A program made the translations under genes and the position numbers. This document shows positions 221 to 28,696 of a DNA stretch of 64,000 bases, piece by piece (position 1 is the first letter of the stretch; each line of letters opens with the position of its first letter). This DNA comes from Nocardia wallacei (GTDB lineage: Bacteria > Actinomycetota > Actinomycetes > Mycobacteriales > Mycobacteriaceae). The DNA lies in contig NZ_AP023396.1 in NCBI RefSeq assembly GCF_014466955.1, forward strand, positions 2,666,001 to 2,730,000, given 5' to 3'. A model generated the notes under the pieces. That model was not told where the DNA came from, searched no databases, and saw nothing but the letters and a program-made list of their open reading frames with translations.

Positions 221-255
221 CCCGAGCGGCACCGCGCCGGATGGGAGCGGCGCGT

Positions 256-1408
256 TCACAGTGTGTCGTATACCTCGGTGACGAGGTCGTAGGCGCGGCG
301 ATCGCCGGATAGCCAGTCCCGCCGCAGATTCGGGATGAAAGCGATCGCCACCTGATTGTCGATGTCCCCGAGGCCGACCGAACCGCCCGCGCCCGGATGT
401 CCGAAGGCCGTCGGCCGCGCGCTGTGCGGCAGCACGAAATTCTGCGAAGGCAACATGTAGCCGAGGCCGAAGGCGCTTTCCAGCAGCAGCACCGCGTCCG
501 GTCCGCGCACGTGTTCACGCGTCGCCTCCGCGAGCAACTCCGGGGCCAGCAGCGCGCCTGTGACGAGGTCGCTGTAGAAGCGGGGCCAACGCGCGTGCGG
601 TGGTGACCAATCCGGTCGCGGGCCAGCCCCCGGCCAACACCTCCGGCTGGTTGTACGAGCCGGCCGGATTGGTCGATGCCCGGATCGCGAGCGAATCGGG
701 ATCCTGGTAGGCGCGCGCCATCGCGGCGACCGTTTCCGCGTCGATCGGCCCCGGATCGGTCCACCTCCGCTGCGGGGCGGGCGGGAATCCGACCCGTGCG
801 GCTGCGGCGGCGACCTGTGGCGGCGCACCGATCCACAGCTCGTCGCCGAGGTGGCGGCGCACGTACTCACCGACGGTGGAACCTGTTGTCCTGCGGAGGA
901 ATTCGCCGACCAGCCAGCCGAAGGTCAGCGCGTGATAGCCGTGCCGGGCGCCGGGCGCCCAGAGGGGTCGCTGCCGCGCCAGCAGTGCGGCCATCGCCGC
1001 GGGGTCGGCGGCCTCGGCGACCGACACGGCCCGGTCGAAGGCCGGGAGCCCGGCACGGTGGGTCAGCAGATCCGCCAGTGTGGTCGAATCCTTGTCCGCG
1101 CCACCGTATTCCGGCCACCAGGTCACCACGGGGTCGTCCAGGTTCACGCCGGCCCGGGCGGCCACCAGGAGGGCGGCCGTGGCGGTGACGGCCTTGGTGC
1201 ACGAGAACGTCACCGACGGCGTGTCCCGCTGCCAGGGCCGACCCGTCCGCGAGTCCGCGACGTCGCCCCACAGATCGGCGACCACGATGCCCCCGACGAA
1301 CACCGTCACGGCGGCCCCGCTGTACTGCCCGTCGGCGAAACTGGCCTCGAACACCTCGCGCACCGACCGGAACGCCGGATCGACCCAGCCGTTCACGCAT
1401 TCCTTCAC
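256..1408 (-). pseudogene. beta-lactamase-fold serine hydrolase (EstB/LipE-type), frameshifted near 582-585
   Basis: Predicted class C beta-lactamase-like esterase of the lipid-ester hydrolase group. From GTG 1408 the first frame carries the nucleophile motif S69-C-T-K72 and the second-motif tyrosine at about Y158 (GYHAL). Near residue 275 similarity moves to another frame, which continues with YSDLVTGALLAPELL, the third motif FGHPGAGGS and a stop at 256. Removing one base from the GGGG run at 582-585 (plus strand) restores a single protein of about 383 residues. This is either a real inactivating frameshift or a homopolymer sequencing error. The start abuts a KstR-type palindrome at 1417-1430, so the transcript is probably leaderless and derepressed by steroid-CoA intermediates. 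Confidence 0.75.
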
Positions 1409-1410
1409 GA

Positions 1411-1436
1411 CAATATTAGAACACGTTCTAGGATTG
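1411..1436. promoter_or_regulatory. KstR-type operator
   Basis: The core TAGAACACGTTCTA (1417-1430) is a 14-bp palindrome with only the central AC/GT asymmetric. It is flanked by CAAT and ATTG, so the dyad extends to 26 bp with a 2-bp gap on each side. The core matches the published KstR motif, the TetR-family repressor of cholesterol catabolism in Mycobacteriales. It lies 8 bp upstream of the GTG of the esterase on the minus strand, where a bound repressor would block transcription. Confidence 0.75.
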
Positions 1437-1697
1437 CCGGTCGTCGTACCCGGTCCGCGCCGTGGCTCGCGGTACCCTGCGATACACTGCTCGCAGCGGC
1501 ATCGCCCGCCGCGCGACGATCGCGGTATCGGCACAGTTCCACCGCGCTCCGTGCGTAATTCGTGCGACGAGTTCAGCACTTCCTTCCCTCTTTCCGGTCA
1601 TTTCCCGATGCCCGACGTGCTGCCTCGCCCGAATTCTCGATCACCCGCCGGGATGCCGTTCCGGCCCGGCCCACTCACCGAAATGGAGTGAAACACC

Positions 1698-2186: not shown

Positions 2187-2225
2187 CGGGACCCCTCCCG
2201 GCGGACCGGCCGTAGCGTGGGCGGG

Positions 2226-2251
2226 CCTCGAACGGCACGGAACGTTCGAGG
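2226..2251. promoter_or_regulatory. inverted repeat upstream of lasso precursor
   Basis: CCTCGAAC (2226-2233) and GTTCGAGG (2244-2251) form perfect 8-bp arms with a 10-bp spacer, ending 28 bp before the precursor start. It could be an operator for a regulator or a 5'-leader hairpin; no regulator gene is adjacent. The right arm contains part of the 8-bp palindrome GAACGTTC. Confidence 0.45.
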
Positions 2252-2279
2252 AACGCATCGACAGAATCGAGGTACCGCA

Positions 2280-2423
2280 GTGGATTCCGTTCGGACATTC
2301 GACGACGACAATGTGTACGAACCGCCGATGCTGGTGGAGGTCGGGACGTTCGCCGAGATGACACAGGGATCGAGTTACGTGATCATCGAGGGCTACCCGA
2401 GCGCCTGGGGCTCCAACTACTAG
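2280..2423 (+). CDS. lasso peptide precursor (A), 47 aa
   Basis: Ribosomal precursor of a predicted class II (cysteine-free) lasso peptide. GTG 2280 has CGAGG seven bases upstream. The leader carries the full recognition signature Y13-x2-P16-x-L18-x3-G22-x5-T28-x; Thr28 is the conserved penultimate leader residue. Cleavage after Q29 gives an 18-residue core, GSSYVIIEGYPSAWGSNY. Gly1 and Glu8 are placed for an 8-residue macrolactam ring, leaving a 10-residue tail with bulky Tyr10, Trp14 and Tyr18 as possible plugs. By hand the cyclised peptide has a monoisotopic mass of about 1930.87 Da (linear minus one water). It is followed by cyclase, leader-binding and protease genes on the same strand. 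I do not recognise this core among lasso peptides I know. Confidence 0.92.
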   Translation: MDSVRTFDDDNVYEPPMLVEVGTFAEMTQGSSYVIIEGYPSAWGSNY

Positions 2424-2437
2424 TCCGTGTTCCGCGG

Positions 2438-2466
2438 TGGCCCATGGCCGCGCCGGTCGTGGGCCA
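2438..2466 (+). promoter_or_regulatory. hairpin between precursor and cyclase genes
   Basis: TGGCCCA (2438-2444) pairs with TGGGCCA (2460-2466) around a GC-rich 15-nt loop that can fold further. It lacks a U-tract, so it is more likely a partial attenuator or mRNA stabiliser than a full terminator. It lies in the 72-bp gap after the precursor, where many RiPP operons tune precursor-to-enzyme ratio. Confidence 0.4.
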
Positions 2467-2495
2467 TTCGCCTTCCTGTGCAAGGGAGATCGATC

Positions 2496-4337
2496 ATGCG
2501 CGGTGAAACACCATGCTGGTTCGTCTGCGTGCCGGACAGCGCGATCGGCGACACGCTCGCGCGGCTGCGCTCGCGGGCCGACCGGGTCATTGCCCATCCG
2601 TCCGGACGGCCCTGGTTGCTGGGCAATTGGCGCGACGATCAGATGACGGTGGCGCGGGCCGCGAACGCGGTCCTGGCCGTCATCGGCAGGTCCGCCACCT
2701 CACCCGCCGAACTCGAAAGGCGCGTAGGGAAAGTGCGCGGACCGGCCGACGTGGAGGCGGCCGCCGGTGCCCTGCCCGGCAGCTACCACCTGCTCGCTGC
2801 CGTTGCCGGCCAGTGTTATCTGCGTGGGTCGGCGTCGGGCTCGCGCAGGTGCTTCCACGCCACGGTCGACGGTGTGACCGTGGGCGCGGACCGGGCGCGC
2901 ACCCTGGCCTGGTTGATCGACGCCGACGTGGACGACCGGCAAGTGGCGGCCCAACTCGCCTATCCCGTGCTGCCCGCTCCACTGAGCGGCCGCGCGATGT
3001 GGCGCGGCGTGCACGCCGTCGCACCCGATCACGCGCTGGTGCTCGCACGCGAGGGCACCCATCGGACGACGCGGTGGTGGCGGCCCCCACCCGCCGACGC
3101 GGGATTCGCGCAGGGCGCTGCCGCATTGCGCCGCGCCCTGCGCGAGGCGGTGGCGTTGCGTGCCCGTCCGGGAGAGGTCGTCGGCGCGGATCTGTCGGGC
3201 GGAATGGATTCGACGTCGGTATGTTTTCTCGCCGCGCAGGCCGGAGCGCGCCCGGTCACCGCCACCCTGCACTGGTCGGCTCCGGGCAATGAGGACCACG
3301 CCTACGCCGATCACGCCGCCGATCACCTCCCCGGGGTCGAACGACTCGTCTTTCCCTCGGCCGAATTACCCGAGTTCCTCGCGGGTCTGACCCATCGCCA
3401 TCAGCCCGCGGACGAGCCCATGGGCATCGTCCGCGACCGCGCGCAGCAGCGAGCGATAGCCGAACTCATGGTCGCGCGCGGCGCCTCGGTCCGGTTGACG
3501 GGCCACGGCGGCGACTATCTCGTCGTGCCGCCTGCCCTGTATGTGCACGATCTGCTGCGCCGCCGTCCCGTGGCGGCGCTGCGGCACCTCACCGGATTGC
3601 GGGCGCGCGGGCGCTGGAGTCCGAGCGCGACCATTCGCCTGTCGGCCCATCGGAGTCCCTACTCCCGCTGGCTCGTCGCGGCGAGTGGCCGGCTGCGGGA
3701 TACCGATACCGTGTCGACGCCGGACGAATGGGGTGAGAGATTCCGGCTGCCGCCGTGGGCCGGCGAGGCAGCCGCCGAAATGCTCGGTGAACTCTTGCGT
3801 TCCGCCGCGGCCGCGGCGACACCGCTGTCCGACGAGCGCGGGAGACACGCCTGGATACAGCAGATCCGCGAAGCCGGTCGCGGAGCCAGGATTCTCGCCC
3901 AGCTCTCCGAGCCGATCGGCCTCGACACCGACAGCCCGTTCTGTGACGACTCGGTAGTCGAGGCGTGCCTGAGCGTTCACCCCGAACTGGCGCGCAACCC
4001 GTGGTCGTACAAGCCGCTGCTCGCCGAAGCCATGCGGGGGCTCGTCCCGCCGCGAATACTCCGCCGCAGCACCAAGGACCACTGCACCGAGGAATGGTTC
4101 GGGGGCCTGCGGGCGCACCGCCGCGACCTCATGGACTGGGCCGAGGACGCACGTCTGGTCGCCATGGGCCTGGTCGACGCATCCGCACTGCGCCGCGCGG
4201 TCGCCGGTCCCGCCATGCTCACCGGCGGTTTCACCCAGCTGGACAACACGCTGGGAGCCGAGGAATGGCTACGCGATCTCGCCGCGCACCCCGTCCCCGC
4301 CTACTTGTCCCGCACCGACACCTCCGTGCCCCGATGA
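2496..4337 (+). CDS. lasso macrolactam synthetase (C protein, asparagine-synthetase-like)
   Basis: ATP-dependent cyclase that adenylates the ring acidic residue (Glu8 of the core) and joins it to the core's N-terminal amine. The 613-residue protein has a degenerate Ntn glutaminase-like N-terminal half and an AsnB-like C-terminal half with the ATP-pyrophosphatase loop SGGMDSTS at about 235. The N-terminus begins MRGETPC, so Cys is not residue 2, as expected for cyclases that do not use glutamine. ATG 2496 was chosen over the upstream in-frame ATG because AAGGGAG lies at 2482-2488. It follows the precursor gene by 72 bp and precedes the PqqD-like gene by 31 bp, all one operon. Confidence 0.92.
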   Translation: MRGETPCWFVCVPDSAIGDTLARLRSRADRVIAHPSGRPWLLGNWRDDQMTVARAANAVLAVIGRSATSPAELERRVGKVRGPADVEAAAGALPGSYHLLAAVAGQCYLRGSASGSRRCFHATVDGVTVGADRARTLAWLIDADVDDRQVAAQLAYPVLPAPLSGRAMWRGVHAVAPDHALVLAREGTHRTTRWWRPPPADAGFAQGAAALRRALREAVALRARPGEVVGADLSGGMDSTSVCFLAAQAGARPVTATLHWSAPGNEDHAYADHAADHLPGVERLVFPSAELPEFLAGLTHRHQPADEPMGIVRDRAQQRAIAELMVARGASVRLTGHGGDYLVVPPALYVHDLLRRRPVAALRHLTGLRARGRWSPSATIRLSAHRSPYSRWLVAASGRLRDTDTVSTPDEWGERFRLPPWAGEAAAEMLGELLRSAAAAATPLSDERGRHAWIQQIREAGRGARILAQLSEPIGLDTDSPFCDDSVVEACLSVHPELARNPWSYKPLLAEAMRGLVPPRILRRSTKDHCTEEWFGGLRAHRRDLMDWAEDARLVAMGLVDASALRRAVAGPAMLTGGFTQLDNTLGAEEWLRDLAAHPVPAYLSRTDTSVPR

Positions 4338-4368
4338 CACCCGGACCGCCTCGAAGGAGCGCCTGGAA

Positions 4369-4626
4369 ATGAACCGACTCCGCGACGACGTCAGCCTGTG
4401 CGTCACCGCAGACGGCACGATTCTCCTCGATGAACGAAGCGGCCGATACTGGCAGCTCAACACGACCGGTGCGGAGATCCTGACCGCCCTGCTGGACGGT
4501 GTCGCCGAGGACGAGGTGGTCCGCAGGCTGACCGAAACCCGGCCGGTCAGCCGCGAACGCGCGGCGGCCGACGTCGCTGACCTACTGGCCCAGCTGGCCC
4601 GTGCCGACCTGTTCAAAGCCTCGTGA
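4369..4626 (+). CDS. lasso leader-binding protein (B1, PqqD-like RRE)
   Basis: An 85-residue stand-alone RiPP recognition element. It shows the PqqD-like pattern of beta strands followed by a helical bundle: ILLDERSGRYWQLNTTGAEILTALLDG, then VVRRLTET and DVADLLAQLARADL. In split-B lasso pathways this protein grips the leader's YxxPxL segment and delivers the precursor to the protease and cyclase. Its stop overlaps the GTG of the next gene (GTGA at 4623-4626), so B1 and B2 are translationally coupled. The short length and position between C and B2 exclude a PQQ role. Confidence 0.9.
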   Translation: MNRLRDDVSLCVTADGTILLDERSGRYWQLNTTGAEILTALLDGVAEDEVVRRLTETRPVSRERAAADVADLLAQLARADLFKAS

Positions 4627-5048
4627 ACCACGACCAGACCCTGGCCGGGTCCACTCCGCTGCCGCTGTCCCGGCGCCTCGGTCCCTACACCGCCGTCGTC
4701 GTCGCCGGAGTCCTCGCGCGGCTCTCCCCGCGCCGCCTGCGCGCGGTGCTGACCCTGCTGCGGCGCGGCGCGGCACCCGCCGACCACAGCCGGGCGCTGT
4801 GGGCGCGCGAGGCCGTCACCGCGGTCAGTACACGGTGCGCCGGTAGGTACTGCCTGCAACGTTCCATCGCCACCGCGGTGCTGTGCCGTCTCACCGGCAC
4901 CTGGCCGACCTGGTGTACCGGAGTGCGCACCGCACCCACCGCGGCACACGCCTGGGTCGAGGCGGAAGGCCGCGCCGTCGGCGAACCACCCGACACCGCC
5001 GCCTATCACGTCCTCCTCGCCGTCCCGCCGATGCCCAGCCCGCGATAG
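4623..5048 (+). CDS. lasso leader peptidase (B2, transglutaminase-like)
   Basis: Cysteine protease of the transglutaminase-like superfamily that removes the leader after Thr28-Gln29. The 141-residue protein has Cys77 in GRYCLQRSIA and His109 in AAHAWVE, spaced as in other B2 proteins; the third triad residue is probably Glu113 or Glu115, where an Asp is more usual. GTG 4623 overlaps the B1 stop. No ABC transporter (D), isopeptidase or regulator follows: the next gene is a TIGR03086 protein with its own ribosome-binding site. The operon is therefore A-C-B1-B2. Confidence 0.9.
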   Translation: MNHDQTLAGSTPLPLSRRLGPYTAVVVAGVLARLSPRRLRAVLTLLRRGAAPADHSRALWAREAVTAVSTRCAGRYCLQRSIATAVLCRLTGTWPTWCTGVRTAPTAAHAWVEAEGRAVGEPPDTAAYHVLLAVPPMPSPR

Positions 5049-5140
5049 GCGCGCACATCTATTGGAATGGACCATTCCGTTCTGATAGAGTGGAGTGCAG
5101 CAGGCCGCCGAGAGGGTGGTCCGAACGAGAGGCGAGATCG

Positions 5141-5731
5141 ATGGGCGAGAACACCGTGACCGAATGGGCCGTGCTGAACGAGGCGCACGCCGCGCTGCGA
5201 AACGTGGTACGCGGGCTGACGGCGGAGGATCTGGGGCGTCCGACGCCCTGCGCGGAATGGACTGTGGCGCAAGTGATTCAGCATGCGGCGGGGGATCAGG
5301 TGGCGTATGCCGCCTTCCTCACCGGCGGTCCGGGACCGGACGAGAATCCGTTCGCGCCGTCGGGCACTCTCGCCGAATCCGCCGAGGTGACCATCGAGCG
5401 CGCGATGGCGGCGGCCGCCGCGGCGTGGGCGACGGTTCCCGCTGCGACCGAAGAGGTTTCGGTGCCCATTCCGCCGAACAAGCTGACCGCCGAACTGGGT
5501 GTCGGGGCCTGCGCGCTCGATGCCGCGGTGCACGCCTGGGATCTGGCCGTCGCCTCCGGTCAGCCGTCACCGCTCACGCCCGAGCTGGCGCGGCGATTGC
5601 TGCCGGTCGCCCACGTGCTGGCCGACCCGCTGCGCGGTTTCGCCTTCGCGGAAGCGCTGCGCGGCAACGACTCCGGTGACCCCGATGCGCTGCTGCGCTA
5701 CCTCGGGCGCGATCCGCGGTGGCGGGCCTGA
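5141..5731 (+). CDS. TIGR03086 family (mycothiol-dependent DinB-like) protein
   Basis: A 196-residue helical protein of the maleylpyruvate-isomerase/DinB-like group, TIGR03086 branch. The signature is NVVRGLTAEDLGRPTPCAEWTV followed by VIQHAAGD; the His in that helix and the later DAAVHAWDLAVA histidine are the expected metal ligands. Members in mycothiol producers are thought to be thiol-dependent transferases or isomerases; the substrate is unknown. ATG 5141 was chosen because GAGAGGCGAG lies just upstream; the longer open frame to 4883 overlaps the lasso protease. A 92-bp gap separates it from the lasso operon. Confidence 0.8.
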   Translation: MGENTVTEWAVLNEAHAALRNVVRGLTAEDLGRPTPCAEWTVAQVIQHAAGDQVAYAAFLTGGPGPDENPFAPSGTLAESAEVTIERAMAAAAAAWATVPAATEEVSVPIPPNKLTAELGVGACALDAAVHAWDLAVASGQPSPLTPELARRLLPVAHVLADPLRGFAFAEALRGNDSGDPDALLRYLGRDPRWRA

Positions 5732-5741
5732 CCGGACCGCC

Positions 5742-6422
5742 TCAGCTCGGCCGGGGCCGCTCCGGCAGCAAACCGTCGAGCATCCGCCGCGCCGCCGTAG
5801 CGGTGTCGTAGCGGGCCGTGCTCCGTGCCCAGTGTGGCAACAGCCGGACGACGGCGGGGAATCCGGCGAGGAGTTCGGGGGTGGCGGCCTCGGTCCAGTG
5901 CGCGGGCGGGCGCCCGTCGGCGGCGGCCTGATCGCGCTTCTCGGCCGCGCGGCGGGCCATCAGCTCGCCGAGGGCGAACCGCCACATCACCCCGTAGAGG
6001 ACCACCGCGTCCTCGTCGGACGCACCGAGTTCGTTCGCGGCGCGGACGAATTCGTCGAGGATCCACATCGCCGCGCGGCCGAAGGTCTCGCCGGTGACGA
6101 GAATGTCGAGGACCCAGGGCAATCGGTGCAGGGTATCGATGAGGTACACCACGATCGTCACCAGGCGCTCGCGCGGATCCTCCGGCAGTGCCGGCCGTTC
6201 CAGCTCGTCGGCGCGAGCGCTGAGTACCGCGAAGAACAGGGCGTTCTTGGTCGGGAAGTGGTAATAGATCGCGGCCACGCTGACATCGAGTTCGCGGGCC
6301 AGTCGACGCATGGTGAATCCGTCGACGCCGGCCGTGGTGAGTAGCCGCGTCGTAGCGGCTACCACGGTCTCGCGGTCGACCCGGACCGGGCGGCCACGTT
6401 TCGGGGTGGTGGGGGACGACAA
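5742..6422 (-). CDS. TetR family regulator
   Basis: A 226-residue one-component repressor. The N-terminal helix-turn-helix spans about residues 18-64 (VVAATTRLLTTAGVDG, FTMRRLARELDVSVAAIYYHF), followed by a helical ligand domain. The start is TTG 6422 with AAAGGAG five bases upstream. It is divergent from the MFS exporter at 6521, and the dyad at 6461-6478 lies between them, so it most likely represses both itself and the pump until an exported compound binds. Confidence 0.85.
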   Translation of the reverse strand: MSSPTTPKRGRPVRVDRETVVAATTRLLTTAGVDGFTMRRLARELDVSVAAIYYHFPTKNALFFAVLSARADELERPALPEDPRERLVTIVVYLIDTLHRLPWVLDILVTGETFGRAAMWILDEFVRAANELGASDEDAVVLYGVMWRFALGELMARRAAEKRDQAAADGRPPAHWTEAATPELLAGFPAVVRLLPHWARSTARYDTATAARRMLDGLLPERPRPS

Positions 6423-6460
6423 GGCGCTCCTTTCTGCGGAATCGAAGCTCTCGACAGCAT

Positions 6461-6478
6461 GGTTAGGGTGTGCTAACC
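6461..6478. promoter_or_regulatory. TetR operator between regulator and MFS pump
   Basis: GGTTAG and CTAACC form perfect 6-bp arms around a 6-bp spacer (GGTGTG) in the 98-bp divergent intergenic region. The region just downstream is AT-rich (6481-6490) and probably holds the pump's -10 element. Placement and shape fit a TetR dimer site. Confidence 0.65.
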
Positions 6479-6520
6479 CTATTAAAAATACATGTTCGGA
6501 AATTATGAGAGGTTGCTCCT

Positions 6521-7948
6521 ATGCCCGCACGCGAGTCCGAGCATCCGAAGGCGGTCCTGCTGGTCGTCTTCCTGGTGATGTTCCTGGTGTCCCTCGACCT
6601 TTCGATAGTCAACGTGGCGTTACCCGATATCGACGCCGCGCTGGAGTTCGGTCCCTCGGCGTTGAGTTGGGTGATCAACGCGTTCATGCTTCCCTACGCC
6701 GGCCTGATGCTGCTGGGCGGGCGGCTGGCGGACCTGACCGGCCGCCGCCGGCTGCTGCTGGCGGCCCTCGTCCTGTTCGCGGTCGCCAGTGCCGCCGGTG
6801 GCGCCGCGCAGGAAGGCTGGCACCTGATCGCGGCGCGGGCGGTGCAGGGGCTCGCGGCGGCGGTGTTGTCGCCGATGTCGCTGGCGCTGGTGACCTCGGA
6901 GTTTCCGGAGGGGCCCGCACGGTCGAAGGCGATGGCGGTCTGGGGCGGTGCCGGTGCGGCGGGTGGCGCGTTCGGTGTCGTCATGAGCGGCGTGCTGACC
7001 GACAATCTCGACTGGCGCTGGGTGATGTGGGTGAATCTGGTGTTCGTCGCCGTCGCGCTGGCCGCCGTCGTGCGCGGCGTGCGGGACAGGCCGGTCGCCG
7101 GGCGCGGGCCGATCGATCTGCTCGGCGCGGTGGCGGTCACCGTCGGGATGACGGCGCTGGTGGCGGCGGTCATCGCCACCGAGCGGCAGGCGTGGGGATC
7201 ACCGGTCGTGCTGGGCTGGTTCGCGGGTGGGATCGTGGCGCTGACGGTGTTCGTCCTGGCCGAACTGCGCGCGGCCGACCCGCTGGTGCCGCTCGGCTTC
7301 CTGCGGCGGCGGTCGCTGATCGGCGCGACCGTGTTCGGGTTCATGCTGGTGTCCGGACAGGTCGCCAGCTTCTACTTCGTCTCGCAGTTCCTCCAGCGCG
7401 TGCTCGAATACAGTTCCACCGCAACCGGTTTGGCGTTCCTGCCGTTCTGTGTGGGAGTTTTCGTCGGCCTGCGCGCGGCGCAGGGAGTGATCGGCCGCGC
7501 CGGGGCCCGGCACGTCATTCTGGCCGGCGGCCTGCTCGGTGCGCTCGGACTGCTGTGGTTCGGGCGTGCGACGGAGTCGAGCGGATTCCTCACCGCGGTA
7601 CTGGGGCCGTCGCTGGTGTGCAGCATCGGCGTCGGTGCGGCCATGGTGGCCATGGGTGTGGCCGGAGTGTCCGGGGTGGCCGCGGAACAGGCCGGGCTGG
7701 CGTCCGGAGTCCTCAACAGCTCACGGCAACTCGGCGGCTCGCTCGGTCTCGCGGTGCTGGTCACCGTATCCGGCAACATCATCGGCGACTCGCACGCGAA
7801 AACCGATCTCGCACACGGCTATACGACCGCGCTCACGATCGCCGCCGGGCTGCTGGCGGTCGGCTCCGTCGCCGCGGCGATCATTCTGCCCGGCCGCTCG
7901 GCGCCCGCCACCGCGCCGCCGGCGCCTGCCGCGGTACCCGTCGAGTAG
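6521..7948 (+). CDS. MFS drug exporter, DHA2 (EmrB/QacA-like)
   Basis: A 475-residue proton-driven exporter with about 14 membrane segments. Segment 1 reads VVFLVMFLVSLDLSIVNVALPDI, typical of DHA2 members, and motif A appears as GGRLADLTGRRR after segment 2. Motif C-like PMSLALVTSEFPEG and later alanine-glycine-rich segments fit. ATG 6521 has GAGAGG upstream. The divergent TetR gene and shared operator imply induction by a toxic substrate; the substrate itself cannot be inferred. Confidence 0.87.
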   Translation: MPARESEHPKAVLLVVFLVMFLVSLDLSIVNVALPDIDAALEFGPSALSWVINAFMLPYAGLMLLGGRLADLTGRRRLLLAALVLFAVASAAGGAAQEGWHLIAARAVQGLAAAVLSPMSLALVTSEFPEGPARSKAMAVWGGAGAAGGAFGVVMSGVLTDNLDWRWVMWVNLVFVAVALAAVVRGVRDRPVAGRGPIDLLGAVAVTVGMTALVAAVIATERQAWGSPVVLGWFAGGIVALTVFVLAELRAADPLVPLGFLRRRSLIGATVFGFMLVSGQVASFYFVSQFLQRVLEYSSTATGLAFLPFCVGVFVGLRAAQGVIGRAGARHVILAGGLLGALGLLWFGRATESSGFLTAVLGPSLVCSIGVGAAMVAMGVAGVSGVAAEQAGLASGVLNSSRQLGGSLGLAVLVTVSGNIIGDSHAKTDLAHGYTTALTIAAGLLAVGSVAAAIILPGRSAPATAPPAPAAVPVE

Positions 7949-7957
7949 CGGGGTGGG

Positions 7958-9928
7958 CTAGGCGAGATTCTCGACCGTGACGGGCTCGATGCCCTCGGCA
8001 GCGGGCAGGTCGAAACCGAATACCTGGCCGTAGAAGCTCAATTCGGCGTCCAGCGCCCGGCGGATGTTCTCCGCGCGCCGGAAGCCGTGTTGCTCGCCGT
8101 CGAAAACCAGGTACGCCACCGGGATGCGCCGCTCCCGCAGCGCATCGACGATCATCTGCGACTGATTCGGCGGTACCACCGGATCCGCACTGCCCTGCAA
8201 CACGATCAGGGGTTTGCGGAACCGGTCGACGTGATGGATCGGCGAACGGTCGCGGTAGATGTCGCGCCTGGCCGGATACGCACCGACCAAGCGGTCGAGA
8301 TAGCGGCTTTCGAACTTGTGGGTGTCGGCGGCGAGTGCCTCGAGATCGGCGATACCGAAATGGTCGGCTCCGGCGGCGAACGGGGTGTCCGCGCGGGCCA
8401 GCGCGGCCAGCGTGGTGTAACCGCCGGCGGAGCCGCCGCGGATGGCGAGCCGTCGCGGATCGACCCGGCCGCGCTCGCTCAGCCAGCGGGCCGCGGCGAC
8501 GCAATCGGCCACGTCCACCACACCCCACGCACCCTCCAGCAGTTCGCGGTAGGCGCGGCCGTAACCGGTGGAGCCGGCGTAATTGACGTCGACCACGGCG
8601 AAGCCCCGACTGGTCCAGTACTGGGTCTGCGGTGTCAGCGCGGGCAGCGCGTGCGAGGTCGGCCCGCCGTGCATGAGGACCAGCAGCGGCGGCAGTTCCC
8701 CGGCCGGGCCGCGATACCGGCTGTTCGCGGGCGGGTAGAACAGCGCGTGCGCGGTGCGCGGCGCACCGGTGCGGTCCACCGAGGGAAAGCGGATCGGCTC
8801 GGGCACCGAGACCGAGGCGGAGTCGAGACCGAGCTCACGCGGTGCCCGCAGGGTCTCCACCCGCGTTGTGCCGCCTACGAATTCGATGCGATAGATGCCG
8901 AGTTCGGTAGTGGGCGTGGCCGCCACGACGACCACACTGTCGGCGCCGGCGCGCTCGACCGCGGTGATGACCGAGAAGGGCAGGTCGAGATCGGTCACCG
9001 AGCCGTCCGTGCGGCGCAGGCCGAGGCCGTCGTAACCGTCGCGCCAGCGGGCGAACACGATGCGGCCGTCGGCGAGCACAGTGTAGCGGGCCGAGCCCAA
9101 CTGCCAAGCGGGCATGCCGATTTCGGCGTCCAACTCGATCACGGGCGTGACCGTCGTGCCGGGTGTCCAGCGGTAGAGATTCCACCACCCGCTGCGATCG
9201 GACAGGAACAGCAGCGAGCCGTCGACCTGCCAGCGCGGCTCCAGGACCGACTCGCCCGGCCCGCCCGCGACGACGGTGTCGGCGCCGGTGGCGAGATCGC
9301 GTACCCGCAGCACGGTGTCGTCCCACGGCATGGACGGGTGGTCCCAGGACACCAGCGCGAGCGCGCTCCCGTCCGGGCTCAGCCGGGGCGCGGCGACGAA
9401 ATCCGGCCCGCTCACCAGCACTTCCGGCGGCGACGGCCGATCGGCGGCCAGCCGCACGATCTCGTTGCGGACATCGACCGCGCCGCGCCCGCCGTCGGGG
9501 TGGTGCTCGCGGACGGCCACGACGGTGGCGCCGTCGGGACCGAGGTCGCCGTCGCCGTACCGGTCGCCGCGCGGTGTGGCGGGGACCGGGGTCAGGGGTG
9601 ACGGCACGCCGCCGGGCGCGAGCCGGTACAGCCGCTGGTCGGACCAGTTCGCGAACCAGACCACGCCGTCGCGGACCCACCAAGCCGCGCCGCCGTATTC
9701 GTGCACCGCGGTGCGCGCGTCCATGCCTTCCGGCAGCAGATCGGTGACGGTGCCGTCGGCGGCGCGGCGCACGATCTGGGTCCGGCCGCCCTCGCCGGGA
9801 CGGCCCTCCGACCAGTAGACGTCGGTGCCGTCCACGTGGACGTCCCACAGCCGCACCGCGGCGGCGACGACCAATTCGGAGGTGACGGGGGTCGGCCACG
9901 AGCCGAAGGGCGATTCGGTGATGGTCAC
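7958..9928 (-). CDS. S9 prolyl oligopeptidase family serine peptidase
   Basis: A 656-residue cytoplasmic peptidase. Residues 1 to about 390 form a beta-propeller with repeated strand phrases such as APRLSPDGSALALVSW and FLSDRSGWWNLYRW. The C-terminal alpha/beta-hydrolase domain has the nucleophile motif GGSAGG near residue 500, the acid in GSADPVVPP and the histidine in GEQHGFR. It is likely an acylaminoacyl- or dipeptidyl-peptidase-type enzyme acting on short peptides. No signal peptide is visible. GTG 9928 starts the frame; the gene converges on the MFS gene with a 9-bp gap. Confidence 0.88.
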   Translation of the reverse strand: MTITESPFGSWPTPVTSELVVAAAVRLWDVHVDGTDVYWSEGRPGEGGRTQIVRRAADGTVTDLLPEGMDARTAVHEYGGAAWWVRDGVVWFANWSDQRLYRLAPGGVPSPLTPVPATPRGDRYGDGDLGPDGATVVAVREHHPDGGRGAVDVRNEIVRLAADRPSPPEVLVSGPDFVAAPRLSPDGSALALVSWDHPSMPWDDTVLRVRDLATGADTVVAGGPGESVLEPRWQVDGSLLFLSDRSGWWNLYRWTPGTTVTPVIELDAEIGMPAWQLGSARYTVLADGRIVFARWRDGYDGLGLRRTDGSVTDLDLPFSVITAVERAGADSVVVVAATPTTELGIYRIEFVGGTTRVETLRAPRELGLDSASVSVPEPIRFPSVDRTGAPRTAHALFYPPANSRYRGPAGELPPLLVLMHGGPTSHALPALTPQTQYWTSRGFAVVDVNYAGSTGYGRAYRELLEGAWGVVDVADCVAAARWLSERGRVDPRRLAIRGGSAGGYTTLAALARADTPFAAGADHFGIADLEALAADTHKFESRYLDRLVGAYPARRDIYRDRSPIHHVDRFRKPLIVLQGSADPVVPPNQSQMIVDALRERRIPVAYLVFDGEQHGFRRAENIRRALDAELSFYGQVFGFDLPAAEGIEPVTVENLA

Positions 9929-10841: not shown

Positions 10842-12152
10842 TCAGCGCAGGAAGCCGGTGTAGTTCCTGCTCATCAGTTGGCTCTCGATCTGCTTGATCG
10901 TATCCAGCCCGACGCTCACCACGATGAGTGTCGAGCTGCCCGCGAACATCAGATTCTGCGCCGAACCGGTCGCGCCCAGGCTCAACACCAGATTCGGCAG
11001 CACCGCGACCGTGCCCAGATAGAGCGAACCGGGCAGCGTGATCCGGCCGAGTACCCGGCTCAACCGGTCGGCGGTCGGCGCGCCGGGGCGGTAGCCCGGG
11101 ATGAAGCCGCCGAACTTCTTCATCTCCTCCGCGCGCTCCCGCGGGTTGAAGGTGATCGCGACATAGAAGTAGGTGAAGAACAGGATGAGCGCGAAATAGA
11201 CGGCGATGTACACCGGGCTGCCCGCGTCGGCCAGATACCGCCGCACCATCGCCTGCCATCGGCTCGAATCATGCTGCGCCAGTTGGGTTATCAGGTTCGG
11301 CAGGTACAGCAGCGAGGACGCGAAGATCACCGGGACGACACCGGCCTGGTTGACCTTCAACGGCAGATACGTCGAGGAACCGCCGTACATCTTGCGGCCC
11401 ACCACGCGCTTGGCGTACTGCACCGGAATCCGGCGCTGCCCCTGCTCGACGAAGATCACCGCCACGATCACCCCGAACGCGCCGAAGCAGACCAGGCCGA
11501 AGATCAATCCGCCCTTGCTGTCCAGGATCGCCCTGCCCTCGCCGGGGATGCGGGCCGCGATGCCCGCGAAGATCAGCAGCGACATGCCGTTGCCGACACC
11601 GCGTTCGGTGATCTGCTCGCCGAACCACATCACCAGCGCCGCGCCGGCGGTCATCACCAGCACGATGATGATCATTCCGAAGATGCTGTCGTCGGCGAGA
11701 ATTCGCTCCGGGCAGTTCGGCAGGAGATGCCCGCGTCCGGCCAGCGCGACCAGGCCGGTGGCGTGCAGGATCGCCAGCGCGACCGACAGATACCGGGTGT
11801 ACTGGCCGATCGTGGCCTGCCCGGTCGGGCCTTGTGTGCGCAGCTCGTCGAAGCGCGGGATCACGACCGTGAGCAGCTGCGTGATGATGCTCGCGGTGAT
11901 GTAGGGCACGATGCCGACCGCGAACACCGACAGTTGCAGCATGGCGCCACCGGAGAACAGGTTGATCAGCTGGTAGATCCCGGTGTCCTCGCCGCCGGAG
12001 AGCTGATCGACGCAGTGCCGGATCGCCCGGTAGTCCACGCCCGGCGAGGGCAGTGCGGCACCGAGCCGGTACGACGCGATCAGGCCCAGCGTGAAGAGGA
12101 TCTTCCGCCGCAGGTCCGGGGCACGGAAAGCCGACACCAAGGCGGAAAGCAC
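10842..12152 (-). CDS. secY: SecY paralogue (preprotein translocase channel)
   Basis: A full-length 436-residue SecY with ten expected membrane segments. Visible hallmarks are LFSGGAMLQLSVFAVGIVPYITASII, the cytoplasmic loop ERGVGNGMSLLIFAGI, QAGVVPVIFASSLL and NPRERAEEMKKFGGFIPG. GTG 12152 has GAGGAGG upstream. The neighbours are not ribosomal genes, adk or map, so this is not the housekeeping spc-operon copy but probably a second SecY; no secA2 or accessory Sec gene is in the window. It is followed after 23 bp by the signal-bearing response regulator, suggesting a two-gene operon. Confidence 0.88.
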   Translation of the reverse strand: MLSALVSAFRAPDLRRKILFTLGLIASYRLGAALPSPGVDYRAIRHCVDQLSGGEDTGIYQLINLFSGGAMLQLSVFAVGIVPYITASIITQLLTVVIPRFDELRTQGPTGQATIGQYTRYLSVALAILHATGLVALAGRGHLLPNCPERILADDSIFGMIIIVLVMTAGAALVMWFGEQITERGVGNGMSLLIFAGIAARIPGEGRAILDSKGGLIFGLVCFGAFGVIVAVIFVEQGQRRIPVQYAKRVVGRKMYGGSSTYLPLKVNQAGVVPVIFASSLLYLPNLITQLAQHDSSRWQAMVRRYLADAGSPVYIAVYFALILFFTYFYVAITFNPRERAEEMKKFGGFIPGYRPGAPTADRLSRVLGRITLPGSLYLGTVAVLPNLVLSLGATGSAQNLMFAGSSTLIVVSVGLDTIKQIESQLMSRNYTGFLR

Positions 12153-12319: not shown

Positions 12320-14230
12320 TCACCCCTTCGCGTCGATGAGCTGCCGGTAGCGCGGATTTCGGGCGAGGAGTTCGGTGTGGGGGCCGGTATCGCTGATTCT
12401 GCCGTCCGCGAGGAGGACGACGGTGTCGGCTTCGCGGATGGTCGACAGGCGGTGGGCGATGACCAGCAGCGCGCACTCCGCTCGAACGGCCTGGATGGTC
12501 ACGTGCAGGGCGCGTTCGGTCTCGGCGTCGAGCATGGCGGTGGGTTCGTCCAGCAGCATCAGCACCGGGCGCCGGATCAGCGCGCGCGCCAGGGCCACGC
12601 GCTGCCGTTCGCCGCCGGAGAGGAGTACGCCGTGCTCGCCGACGGAAGTGTCGAGGCCGCGGGGCAACCGGGCGACGAGGTCGGACAGACCGGCGAGTTT
12701 CAATGCGCGCTCCAGCTCGTCGTCGGACAGGCCGGGTTCCCGGTAGGTGAGATTGTCTCGGAGACTTCCGAACAGCAGCGGGGCGTTCTGTTCCAGCAGG
12801 CTGATATCCGAGCGCCATTCCCGCCGCGAGCGCTGCGAGTACGAGCGGCCGCTCAGCAGAATGTCACCGCCGTCCGGTTCGTAGAATCTGCTCACCAAGG
12901 AGAACACCGTGGACTTACCGGCGCCCGAATGGCCGACGAGGACTACGTGGCCGTGTGCCGGTACCGAGAAGGTCACGCCGTCGAGAACCTTTCGCTCGCC
13001 GTAGGAGAAACGCACGTTGCGGAATTCGAGGGCGGCAACGCCGTTCTGCGCAGTGTTCTCGAATGTCGTGGGCGCCGGGCCGATGTCGTCGTGTTTCTCT
13101 GCGGGCAGTTCGAGTGTCGAAGTTATCCGGCGGAGCGCGCCCAGGGCTCTTTGCAGCTCGACGGAGCCGTTGAACAGATCGCCGACCGGGATCAGCAGGT
13201 TCATCGCGAGCAGCATCATCGATACGAGATCGCTCAACTCCATCTGCCGATGCGCTACCCGGACGCCACCGACCAGCAACGACACCACGAACGAACCCGT
13301 CACCGCCAGGTGCATGGCCGGATTGCCCAGCGCCTTCAGCCGGGCGGCCCGCAGTCCGGCGGAGAACGCCGCGCCGGCCAGTTCGGTCAAGCGCTCGTGC
13401 TCCCGGTCCTCGGCATTGTTGACCTTGACCGTGCGCAGCCCGGTGAGCGCCCGCTCGATATCCGCCGACAGCGCCCCGACACTGTCCTGCAGGCGCGTCG
13501 AGGCCACCTCGATCCGCGTCATCACCAGCAACATCGCGCCCGCGGCCACACCGACGGTGACGATCACGATCGAGAACAGCACCCAATCGAGACAGATCAT
13601 CACCGCGACGGTCCCGACCAGCGTGATCGTGCCGGTGAGCAGCTGCACGAGACTGGTGCCCACGGCATTGCGCACCACTGTGGCATCCAGTGTCACCCGC
13701 GAGATCAGATCCCCGACCCGCAGCGATTCCAGGGTAGGAATCCGCAACCTCAGCAGGTGCCCGGCCAAGCGGTCACGAACCGTCAAAAGGACGGATTCAC
13801 TGGACCTTTCGAGAATGTAGACGCCACCGGTATCGACGACAGCGTGCAGCAGGTACGCTCCGACGAGCGCGGCAAGAGACCACGCCATGGTCTCACCCGC
13901 CACCGCGTCCCGGACCACACGTCCCGCCAGCAGCGGCTGCGCCAATGCCGACCCGGTACCCGTCAGCAGCAGCGCCGTCGCCACCAGCAGCGATTTCCGC
14001 TGCGGCGCAATCAATTCGAGTAACTCGCGCATTCTGCGCAACCACGAATCGCCCGGCCGGACGTCGTCGCCCCTCGCGGTCTCCCCCTGAACAGCCCTGT
14101 CTCCCACCACATCCCACAACGTAGCCGACCGCCGAGCGGTACGGGCACGGTCGGCACCCGGCTCATACGCTCCGGCCGACGGCGGCGCGCCATTCCCAAC
14201 GAACGCCGGGACCGCTAGCATTGTCCGCAC
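12320..14230 (-). CDS. ABC exporter, fused membrane-ATPase (MsbA/LmrA type)
   Basis: A half-transporter of up to 636 residues. Six membrane segments start near residue 80 (SLLVATALLLTGTG...). The ATPase domain from about 390 has Walker A GHSGAGKST, signature LSGGERQRVALARAL, Walker B VLMLLDEPTA and the switch histidine in IAHRLST. The first 66 residues are hydrophilic and no candidate start has a clear ribosome-binding site; GTG 14110 or ATG 14032 are also possible. The substrate is unknown. It is the only multidrug/peptide-type ABC exporter in the window, so it is a candidate, unlinked exporter for the lasso peptide, but 7 kb and many genes separate them. Confidence 0.85.
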   Translation of the reverse strand: MRTMLAVPAFVGNGAPPSAGAYEPGADRARTARRSATLWDVVGDRAVQGETARGDDVRPGDSWLRRMRELLELIAPQRKSLLVATALLLTGTGSALAQPLLAGRVVRDAVAGETMAWSLAALVGAYLLHAVVDTGGVYILERSSESVLLTVRDRLAGHLLRLRIPTLESLRVGDLISRVTLDATVVRNAVGTSLVQLLTGTITLVGTVAVMICLDWVLFSIVIVTVGVAAGAMLLVMTRIEVASTRLQDSVGALSADIERALTGLRTVKVNNAEDREHERLTELAGAAFSAGLRAARLKALGNPAMHLAVTGSFVVSLLVGGVRVAHRQMELSDLVSMMLLAMNLLIPVGDLFNGSVELQRALGALRRITSTLELPAEKHDDIGPAPTTFENTAQNGVAALEFRNVRFSYGERKVLDGVTFSVPAHGHVVLVGHSGAGKSTVFSLVSRFYEPDGGDILLSGRSYSQRSRREWRSDISLLEQNAPLLFGSLRDNLTYREPGLSDDELERALKLAGLSDLVARLPRGLDTSVGEHGVLLSGGERQRVALARALIRRPVLMLLDEPTAMLDAETERALHVTIQAVRAECALLVIAHRLSTIREADTVVLLADGRISDTGPHTELLARNPRYRQLIDAKG

Positions 14231-19742: not shown

Positions 19743-20190
19743 TCACAGTGTGGGTGGTGGGCGTCTCAGGTGTGGTGACAGAGCACGCAACACCCGCTGG
19801 GAAGGCCCCTTGACGATAGCTACGCTGTGCGAGTTCATCCGACTCGAGGACGAGGTCCGTGAAAACCCTTCTGGCAGTTCTAGCAACCGTGCTCGTCAGC
19901 ACCGCGGTGCTGGCCACCCACCCCGCCACCGCGGCACCACCCCCACCCGCCGCACCCGGCCCCTCCCCCCTGCAGGAATGGATCGACAACACCATCCCCG
20001 CACCCCCACTCGACCCCGCACCCCCCGCCGCCCCCACCCCCCAGCACCTCACCAGCGACGACCAGACCACCCTCTGGAAATCCGTCCTGTCCACCCCCAC
20101 CGGCGACCCCACCTTCGACACCTGGCCCACCGGACTCGACACCCTCACCCCCGGCCACATCATCGAAACCCGCGACGTCACCGCGACCGC
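19743..20190 (+). repeat. 448-bp inverted repeat, left copy
   Basis: This segment and 22348-22795 (opposite strand) appear identical over their whole 448 bp. It covers 116 bp of promoter and leader (beginning TCACAGTGTGGGTGG) and the first 110 or so codons of the lipase, including the signal peptide. Its codons are unusually rich in C at the third position compared with the rest of the gene. Confidence 0.9.
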
Positions 20191-21226
20191 GGCGATGCGC
20201 ATGGCGACGCCCATCTCGCGCGCGCTGCTGCTGAAGTACCGCTCCACCTCCGCGACCGGCACGCCGTCGTTCGGCACCGCCACGCTGATCACCCCGGCGG
20301 CCCCGTGGACGGGTCCCGGCCCGCAGCCGGTGCAGGTGAACGCGCTGCCGATCAATTCCCTCGGCGCGCACTGCACGCCGGGGTACCAGATGTCGCACGG
20401 CCTGCTGGAGAAGCCCAATACCGATCTCACGGTGTTCATGCCGTCCATCTGGTGGGCTCTCGGCCAGGGACACGCGGTCCTCGTGCCCGATCACGAAGGT
20501 CCCCTGATGGCCTACGCCGAGCCCAACGTCGCCGGGCACATGATTCTCGATGCGATCCGGGCCACCCGGACGGTGGACGACAACGCGTTCGGCGCGAGCC
20601 GTTTCGTGGTCAGCGGCTACTCGGGTGGCGCGATCGCCTCGTACGCGACGGCCATGCTGCTCGACGAGTACGCGCCGGAACTGGCGGAGGTCGTCGTGGG
20701 CGCGGCCGCGGGCGGGGTGGTCACCGACAACCGCAATGTCGCTCACCGGTTCAACGGCAACATCTCCTCGGGGATCCTGCTGTCGGTGGCGCTGGCCGTG
20801 GCCCGCGAGCACCCGGAGATGTTGCAGTACACCAATCATCTCGCGCAGTGGGTGGCGTCCTCGCCGATCAAGGACATCTGCGGCGACGCCGACGGCCCGC
20901 TCGGCGTGGTCGGTTTCCCGATGGATGTCGTGGCGAATGTCGGCAATTCGCTCGACGGCGCCTTCGCCGACGAGATGTTCGCCCGGCTGGATCTCGTCGG
21001 CCGCACCTCGGCGGTGCCGCTGTACATCTACCACGGCGCCCACGATCCGTGGATTCCGCTCGACGACGCTCAGCGCACGCATCGCCAGCAGTGCGGCCGT
21101 GGCGTCGCGTCCGTCTTCCGGGTGGTGCCCGGCGAGCATCTGATCGGGTACGCCACCGGCTCCCCGGGGCTCGACGACTGGCTGCTCGCGCGGTTGCGCG
21201 GCGAACCGGCGCCGCGCGAATGCTGA
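19859..21226 (+). CDS. secreted LIP-family lipase, copy 1
   Basis: A 455-residue exported lipase of the secretory LIP family (Candida LIP-like, common in Nocardia). Residues 1-26 form a signal peptide (LLAVLATVLVSTAVLATHPATA-A). The mature enzyme has the nucleophile motif GYSGG near 253-257, the acid in GAHDPWIP near 395 and the histidine in VPGEHLIG near 424. Conserved NALPINSLGAHCTPGY and DHEGPLMAYAEPNVAGH are family hallmarks. GTG 19859. Its first 110 residues match the convergent paralogue exactly, whereas the rest differs, indicating gene conversion or recent duplication with a different catalytic part. Confidence 0.88.
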   Translation: MKTLLAVLATVLVSTAVLATHPATAAPPPPAAPGPSPLQEWIDNTIPAPPLDPAPPAAPTPQHLTSDDQTTLWKSVLSTPTGDPTFDTWPTGLDTLTPGHIIETRDVTATAAMRMATPISRALLLKYRSTSATGTPSFGTATLITPAAPWTGPGPQPVQVNALPINSLGAHCTPGYQMSHGLLEKPNTDLTVFMPSIWWALGQGHAVLVPDHEGPLMAYAEPNVAGHMILDAIRATRTVDDNAFGASRFVVSGYSGGAIASYATAMLLDEYAPELAEVVVGAAAGGVVTDNRNVAHRFNGNISSGILLSVALAVAREHPEMLQYTNHLAQWVASSPIKDICGDADGPLGVVGFPMDVVANVGNSLDGAFADEMFARLDLVGRTSAVPLYIYHGAHDPWIPLDDAQRTHRQQCGRGVASVFRVVPGEHLIGYATGSPGLDDWLLARLRGEPAPREC

Positions 21227-21314: not shown

Positions 21315-22679
21315 CTACGCGCATTCGTTCGGCGCGGGCTCGCCGCGCAGCCGGGCGTCGATCCAGTCGGTGGATCCGGCGCCGCCGTTGAGCATGGCGG
21401 AGACGTGTTCGCCCGGCACCGTGCGGAACTGCGCCGCGACGCCGAGCGCGCACTGCCGCTGATACATCTGCCGCGGGCCCTGGATCGGAATCCAGAAATC
21501 GTCGGCGCCATGGTAGATGTACAGCGGCACAGCCGATGTGCGGTCGGTCAGGTCGGTCAGCCGCTCGATGTGCTCGGCGATATCGCTCTCGAGCGGTTGG
21601 TCGATGTTCGTCGCGACCTCCATCGGGATGCCCACCGCGCCGAGCGGGCCGTCCGCCTCGCCGCAGATGTTCTTCAGTGGCGAGGTCGCCACCCACCGGG
21701 CGAGGTTGTTCATGTACTGCAGCATCTCGGGATGTTCGCGCGAGATCGCCAGCGACACCGAGAGCAGGATTCCGGAGGCGCTGCGGCCGTTGAACACGTG
21801 GGCGACCGCGCCGTAGTCGGTCACCAATCCGCCCACGGACGCGCCGACGAGCACATCCGCCAGTTCGGGTGCGTACTCCGGCAGCAACATCGCGGTCGCG
21901 TAGGAGGCGATCGATCCGCCCGAGTAACCGGCGACCGCGAAACGGCTGGCGCCGAACTCTTCCGGGAACAGCGATCGCACGGCTCGCATGGCATCGAGGG
22001 TCATGTGCCCGGCGACGGTGGGCTCGGCGTAGGCCACCAGCGGGCCCTCGTGGTCGGGCACCAGGATGGCCTGGCCCTTGTTCAGCGCGTCCGCCACACC
22101 CGGCAGGAAGACGTTGATGCCGTTGTTGTCGCGACGGCCGTGCGCGATCGTGTAGCCGGGGGTGCACTGCAGACCGAGTGCGTTGATCGGCATGGTGTCC
22201 ACCCGCACCGGCCGCGGGTCCGGACCCGGCCACGCGACGGCGGGCACGAGGAATGTCGCGGTGCCGAACGAGGGTGTGCCCGTCGCGGAGGTGGAGCGGT
22301 ACTTCACCAGCAGCGCCCGCGCGATCGGGGCGTTGACGAGCGTGGCGGCGGTCGCGGTGACGTCGCGGGTTTCGATGATGTGGCCGGGGGTGAGGGTGTC
22401 GAGTCCGGTGGGCCAGGTGTCGAAGGTGGGGTCGCCGGTGGGGGTGGACAGGACGGATTTCCAGAGGGTGGTCTGGTCGTCGCTGGTGAGGTGCTGGGGG
22501 GTGGGGGCGGCGGGGGGTGCGGGGTCGAGTGGGGGTGCGGGGATGGTGTTGTCGATCCATTCCTGCAGGGGGGAGGGGCCGGGTGCGGCGGGTGGGGGTG
22601 GTGCCGCGGTGGCGGGGTGGGTGGCCAGCACCGCGGTGCTGACGAGCACGGTTGCTAGAACTGCCAGAAGGGTTTTCAC
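21315..22679 (-). CDS. secreted LIP-family lipase, copy 2
   Basis: A 454-residue paralogue of the convergent lipase at 19859. The signal peptide and first 110 or so residues are identical, then the mature enzyme diverges: nucleophile motif GYSGG (in FAVAGYSGGSIASYATA), acid in GADDFWIP and histidine in VPGEHVSA. The middle contains NALGLQCTPGYTIAHG in place of the paralogue's NSLGAHCTPGYQMSHG. It should hydrolyse acylglycerols or similar esters outside the cell. Promoter and start region (GTG 22679) lie within the right inverted-repeat copy, so both genes probably respond to the same signals. Confidence 0.88.
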   Translation of the reverse strand: MKTLLAVLATVLVSTAVLATHPATAAPPPPAAPGPSPLQEWIDNTIPAPPLDPAPPAAPTPQHLTSDDQTTLWKSVLSTPTGDPTFDTWPTGLDTLTPGHIIETRDVTATAATLVNAPIARALLVKYRSTSATGTPSFGTATFLVPAVAWPGPDPRPVRVDTMPINALGLQCTPGYTIAHGRRDNNGINVFLPGVADALNKGQAILVPDHEGPLVAYAEPTVAGHMTLDAMRAVRSLFPEEFGASRFAVAGYSGGSIASYATAMLLPEYAPELADVLVGASVGGLVTDYGAVAHVFNGRSASGILLSVSLAISREHPEMLQYMNNLARWVATSPLKNICGEADGPLGAVGIPMEVATNIDQPLESDIAEHIERLTDLTDRTSAVPLYIYHGADDFWIPIQGPRQMYQRQCALGVAAQFRTVPGEHVSAMLNGGAGSTDWIDARLRGEPAPNECA

Positions 22680-28401: not shown

Positions 28402-28696
28402 TGTTCGCGCTCCCGGTCTCGAACCGACACCACCATCGTCTACCCGGCCATACGGTAATCGCCACCTATGCGTGCATCCAGTGCACACCCGGATTCGGTG
28501 AACCTCACGGTCGGGGTGAAAGCCGCGTGAGGATATCGCACTGCGGCCGTTACCCGAGTTCGCGGAATTGTGGCATTTACCGGAGCGGGCAGTGCCCGGC
28601 TACCGAGAATTCTCAGAAACGCGGGCGGACCTTGCCGGTCCGCGTCCGCGCGTCCTAGCGTCGGCGCGGTCGGGTTTCCGGCAGGGAGGTCGTCGT

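Follow-up and report, generated by a model that had tools for sequence, protein, structure and literature searches.

How a lasso peptide would leave the cell is the question raised by a compact operon at 2280-5048 of the 64-kb stretch of DNA analysed here (the window), in which four biosynthetic genes lie with no exporter gene next to them. A preliminary description of the same DNA had placed a precursor, a cyclase, a leader-binding protein and a leader protease on one strand in the order A-C-B1-B2.

An intact class II lasso-peptide operon

The four genes were found where they had been described, as an intact class II operon of the order A-C-B1-B2, and all of them matched lasso families or parent families in profile searches; A, B1 and B2 exceeded the curated cut-offs of lasso models, and C matched Asn_synthase strongly. 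The precursor gene A (2280..2423, forward strand) has a GTG start at 2280 and a stop codon ending at 2423, and its product, VDSVRTFDDDNVYEPPMLVEVGTFAEMTQGSSYVIIEGYPSAWGSNY, scored 35.5 bits against the NCBIfam lasso leader model NF033521 (cut-off 19). Gene C (2496..4337, forward) encodes an AsnB-like lasso cyclase whose SGGxDS loop reads SGGMDSTS, as first described, and which scored 124.6 bits against Pfam Asn_synthase PF00733 (cut-off 21). Its best NCBIfam model was NF033561 (albusnodin/ikarugamycin-family macrolactam cyclase) with 278.2 bits, under the cut-off of 300; it did not reach the cut-offs of the lasso-specific NCBIfam cyclase models, and a search for solved-structure relatives at E 0.001 returned none.

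B1 (4369..4626, forward), a PqqD-like leader-binding protein (RRE), scored 96.1 bits against the lasso PqqD model NF033530 (cut-off 70) and has the solved relatives TfuB1 6jx3 (E 7e-13) and TbiB1 5v1u. It overlaps B2 (4623..5048, forward) by the GTGA at 4623-4626, which agrees with the first reading of the sequence. B2, a transglutaminase-like leader protease, scored 105.7 bits against the lasso B2 model NF033537 (cut-off 33), and the search for solved-structure relatives found none for it. B2-type proteases have a Cys-His-acid triad, familiar from work on McjB; the Cys, His and Glu are present in the window protein and in 51 of 52 aligned B2 rows, the remaining row being gapped. An Rfam scan gave no matches and a tRNA scan found no tRNA.

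The leader motif and the predicted core

The full leader signature YxxPxLxxxGxxxxxTx attributed to the precursor is present, and it occurs only once in the six frames of the 64-kb window. A sample of 40 class-wide B2 loci (629 kb) contained 21 matches to the same motif, at most one per locus, and those compared by eye adjoin C or B genes. The precursor thus carries both YxxPxLxxxG and a Thr at -2, and this Thr places the cut after Gln29, which leaves residues 1-29 as leader and residues 30-47, GSSYVIIEGYPSAWGSNY, as core. The core has 18 residues and combines a suitable N-terminal residue (Gly1) with an acidic residue in the range 7-9 (Glu8, the only one in the core) and no Cys.

By homology with characterized systems, B1 would bind the YxxPxL leader, B2 would cleave after Gln29, and C would adenylate Glu8 of the core and join it to the amino group of Gly1. 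The predicted product has 18 residues, 8 in the ring and 10 in the tail; for the Gly1-Glu8 ring we calculated a lasso mass of 1930.874 and an [M+H]+ of 1931.881. A literature search with the core strings gave no match for either, and the core of the predicted peptide is new to the literature searched; the operon type is already well known.

The core is near-invariant among the carriers

A search of genome contigs located the operon in three further species, N. mexicana, N. transvalensis and N. wallacei, whose cyclases are 73-75% identical to that of the window; the gene order, which had been proposed for a search of other Nocardia genomes, thus recurs. The predicted core is identical in the window and these three species, with divergence at synonymous sites, in the leader and in the cyclase. 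Against each of the three others, the 18 core codons of the window show 6 synonymous and 0 non-synonymous differences, and leader codons 2-29 show 8, 12 and 9 non-synonymous differences out of 28. Of the four precursors recovered from the protein database, one was that of the window itself (3 member sequences, 14 contigs) and one that of N. transvalensis; the remaining two have Val in place of Ile6, which makes the core near-invariant but not fully so. Such a core predicts a conserved target and suggests that the peptide acts on a single conserved target or receptor.

A cyclase search at E 1e-20 matched 19 of 148 genus genomes, more distant lasso types included. It covered 148 of the 150 genomes used for the exporter search described below and did not list genome G148, whose cluster turned up only in the later survey of exporter loci, so the numbers of clusters given here are minimum values. 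On the cyclase tree the window falls in a clade of six (100/100) made up of five exporter-less Nocardia sequences and L202, a locus from outside the genus that bears an exporter gene (D); the tree gave no resolution of the branching order inside this clade. The expectation that homologues keep the leader motif was borne out in the four Nocardia species and in two relatives, L202 and L031.

It might be argued that the operon is silent or in decay and yields no product, given the decayed lasso clusters of other Nocardia genomes (L148, L142 and L145) and the lack of a known product for this one. We regard this as very unlikely, however: none of the four frames is disrupted in the window or in the three other species, and both the core and the cyclase (dN/dS 0.24-0.33 over six species pairs) are under purifying selection. 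Family matches and conservation also rule out chance open reading frames. We conclude that the operon is a real class II lasso operon of ordinary type and, judging by its sequence, probably a functional one.

The cassette is a bounded unit

The operon and its leader region form a unit of about 2.9 kb (2188..5062, forward strand) that is missing at the corresponding place in the sister species, genome G087. By blastn, homology with the G087 locus, L188, covers 1681-2187 (87.8%) and 5063-5739 (88.3%) of the window, and the two genomes are collinear on both sides of the unit with 86-90% DNA identity. In G087 the cassette site is occupied by an unrelated alpha/beta hydrolase ORF (L188 1436-2512, reverse strand). 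The two loci also differ at other points (window 238-1476; L188 3117-4694), which leaves insertion of the unit unproved against deletion or replacement.

In the four-species alignment, agreement across all rows begins at about window position 2189. The region from there to the start of A (2189..2279, forward) starts with GGACCCCTCC, is common to the four Nocardia species and presumably holds the promoter and ribosome-binding site; a promoter scan found no sigma-70-like match in it. The promoter and terminator scan gave a single site, inside A, and no terminator-like site after B2. The upstream neighbours are common to N. mexicana and N. wallacei and different in N. transvalensis and in the window. 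The bounds of the unit together with these differing flanks show that what is conserved is A-C-B1-B2. A search of 40 relatives for orthologues of the gene next downstream returned nothing closer than matches of 48-56%, and so yielded no empty site.

A 13-pair stem-loop lies between A and C, at approximately 2437..2467 on the forward strand (from a fold of 2418-2495). It is present in all four species, with 12 of its 13 pairs unvarying, and in the window the predicted fold is more stable than that of every one of 200 shuffled sequences (z -3.2). By eye, a different long stem is seen in the corresponding position of L202. A table entry in PMC7549694 records that a hairpin was removed to raise the yield of astexin-1.

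Lasso clusters without an adjacent exporter are not rare

Counting only full ABC exporters on the same strand and next to the cluster, we found none for the operon; the nearest full ABC exporter is 7.3 kb away on the other strand. The preliminary description had called such a gap unusual for class II clusters in actinobacteria, which proved overstated. Among 21 intact Nocardia clusters, 11 have an adjacent exporter, 9 have none and 1 has ATPase-type hits only. Three cases were dropped from this count: the cluster of G091, split over contig ends (L031/L032), L145, which has no C, and the broken L148. In the fragmentary G091 cluster no ABC exporter was seen after B2. Outside the genus, the 11 nearest relatives in the order divide into 8 with an exporter, 2 without and 1 with ATPase-type hits only. 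The 40 class-wide loci were drawn by taking roughly one in three of the first 100 B2 places and adding six more, from some 130 listed, a scheme by which strong B2 matches are over-represented; with two contig-end cases (L115 and L118) excluded, 22 of 27 strong-B2 clusters have an exporter, 4 have none and 1 has ATPase-type hits only, and a same-strand adjacent exporter is found in 1 of 11 weak-B2 loci.

Exporter-less actinobacterial clusters have also been published. The part of PMC5974421 available to us describes at least three of six clusters (9401-LP2, Snou-LP and Sven-LP) as having no transporter genes; Snou-LP was produced, 9401-LP2 and Sven-LP were not, and its authors see toxicity in the absence of a resistance gene as one possible cause of the failures. 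A 2025 survey of Nocardia, in the portion accessible to us, counts lassopeptide as a RiPP class of the genus (PMC12153302).

These observations are in keeping with a cassette that very probably makes one class II lasso peptide and that has been passed on, by inheritance or transfer, as A-C-B1-B2 without an exporter. Its predicted product would most likely leave the cell through a host transporter with no dedicated partnership, or by leakage. A peptide that stays unexported, acting inside the cell or released on lysis, would fit the lack of an operon-linked exporter in all four species and in the G091 fragment. A near-invariant core suits a cytoplasmic and an outside target alike, however, and Snou-LP, from a transporter-less cluster, is described as excreted in Streptomyces hosts in the consulted parts of PMC5974421 and PMC7549694; we think retention in the cell quite improbable.

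Neighbouring genes as possible partners

The claim that no exporter, isopeptidase or tailoring gene stands beside the operon holds in that none lies within it and no full ABC exporter lies within 7.3 kb; it had overlooked an ABC exporter at 12320-14230. The transporter nearest to B2, at 1.5 kb, is an EmrB-like MFS pump encoded with a TetR regulator (5742-7948). Its position invites the idea that it exports the peptide, and its best NCBIfam model is a DHA2-type efflux pump, at 190.1 under the cut-off of 230.2. Yet the operon-less G087 has the pump at 94% identity, and among the other carriers the best match drops to 64% in N. mexicana, 47% in N. transvalensis and 45% in N. wallacei. This ortholog comparison led us to reject it as a conserved partner, and export by this pump seems extremely doubtful.

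A prolyl-oligopeptidase-family gene (7958-9928), which the operon-less sister species also has (92% identity), was rejected as an AtxE2-like lasso isopeptidase: it scored 36.2 bits against a cut-off of 400, so by that test the statement that no isopeptidase is present stands, and the cluster is not of the isopeptidase type. In N. mexicana and N. wallacei an ABC pair is encoded on the opposite strand, at a distance of about 3.2-5.4 kb from the operon; it was likewise rejected as a general D, N. transvalensis having only an ATPase-type hit, at 3.1 kb. The window also contains a second SecY gene (10842-12152, reverse strand), 81% identical to another genomic copy and adjoining a LuxR-like ORF. 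Further on are two inverted, closely similar secreted lipase-like genes (19859-21226 and 21315-22679) and a third relative (27028-28488), all by eye.

A resident D-type exporter and its orphan relatives

The earlier suggestion of an unlinked pump gains a concrete candidate in the gene at 12320-14230 (reverse strand), 7.3 kb downstream of the operon and outside the cassette. It encodes an intact full ABC exporter (PF00664 and PF00005) of the lasso D type, 76-81% identical to the D genes that immediately follow B2 in seven further Nocardia lasso clusters, with a dN/dS of 0.21 against the sister species. It might act in trans as D for the cassette, in both export and immunity. Against this, it stands at the same place in the operon-less G087, and the search of the three other operon carriers yielded no orthologue, their best matches being 36, 34 and 30%. 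On the D tree the window and G087 copies fall outside the 17 other members, so the gene may never have been a cluster gene. A role as D for the cassette appears unlikely, and we treat 12320-14230 as a candidate in-trans exporter, not as a conserved partner.

At E 1e-180, 19 of 150 genus genomes have orthologues of this exporter: in 7 it adjoins an intact lasso cluster, in 3 it adjoins remnants (L148, L142 and L145), and in 9 it stands alone, 8 of the lone genes being intact and one broken. Lasso D-type exporters alone or beside broken lasso genes were noted at L148, L142, L145, L137-L141, L144, L146 and L147. On a quick D tree, orphan or remnant status requires at least 7 changes, and orphan status shows no significant clustering (69 of 500 shuffles as low). 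These exporters suggest that biosynthesis was lost and the exporter retained.

A D-family gene is present in 3 of 7 genomes whose only lasso operon is exporter-less versus 8 of about 130 (an approximate figure) without a detected lasso cyclase (p 0.011), an association that was tested post hoc and gives p 0.062 with the sister pair counted once; the link between exporter-less operons and orphan D genes is suggestive at best. On a wider scheme, the exporter-less cassette would have landed beside a resident orphan D exporter and used it in trans, and Nocardia would repeatedly lose biosynthesis and keep D as immunity against the lasso peptides of neighbours; this seems unlikely. The orphan D genes pose the question of whether exporters and immunity can evolve apart from lasso biosynthesis.

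Comparison with known lasso systems

Albusnodin-type families supply the best cyclase model for C (NF033561) and the second hit for A (NF033525). We rejected membership in the family: the precursor scored 14.5 against a cut-off of 30, the cyclase also fell short of its own, and the window, unlike the albusnodin type, has no acetyltransferase between A and B2. Within Nocardia, another precursor type with similar cores (NLRRGIPEPIIVVPLGK and kin) occurs in D-bearing clusters (L011, L012 and L015, in G043, G090 and G133), and a further exporter-less lasso type, with the cores GFSSFLPEFPFGDQNWPN and GFSSFLPEFPFVDQPWPH, occurs in the sister species G087 (L013) and in N. mexicana (L025, genome G069).

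The closest relative found outside Nocardia is L202 (genome G680), from a different family of the same order, with a C that is 50-51% identical, the leader VYEPPVLAEAGGFAEETQ and a core that begins GSS. It differs in its core, GSSSVGLPEGDGSYNRPIWW, and in a D gene directly after B2, which answers the question of whether a D gene ever joins this gene order. Lariatin begins GSQLVYRE, a start that would presumably share Gly1, Ser2, Val5 and Glu8 with the window core. As described in the accessible part of PMC4960549, lariatin A of Rhodococcus jostii (larABCDE) resembles the window prediction in its 18 residues, its Gly1-Glu8 ring and the Thr at -2 of its leader, but the lar cluster has its own exporter, LarE, and a different core. 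The Snou-LP cluster of Streptomyces noursei, as far as PMC5974421 was available, shares the gene order (A-C-E-B, E being the RRE, B1 here), the lack of transporter genes and an 18-residue product, which was detected; its core starts with Tyr and its leader sequence differs. To these systems the window adds a predicted lasso peptide with a near-invariant core in several Nocardia species, made by what is otherwise an ordinary system.
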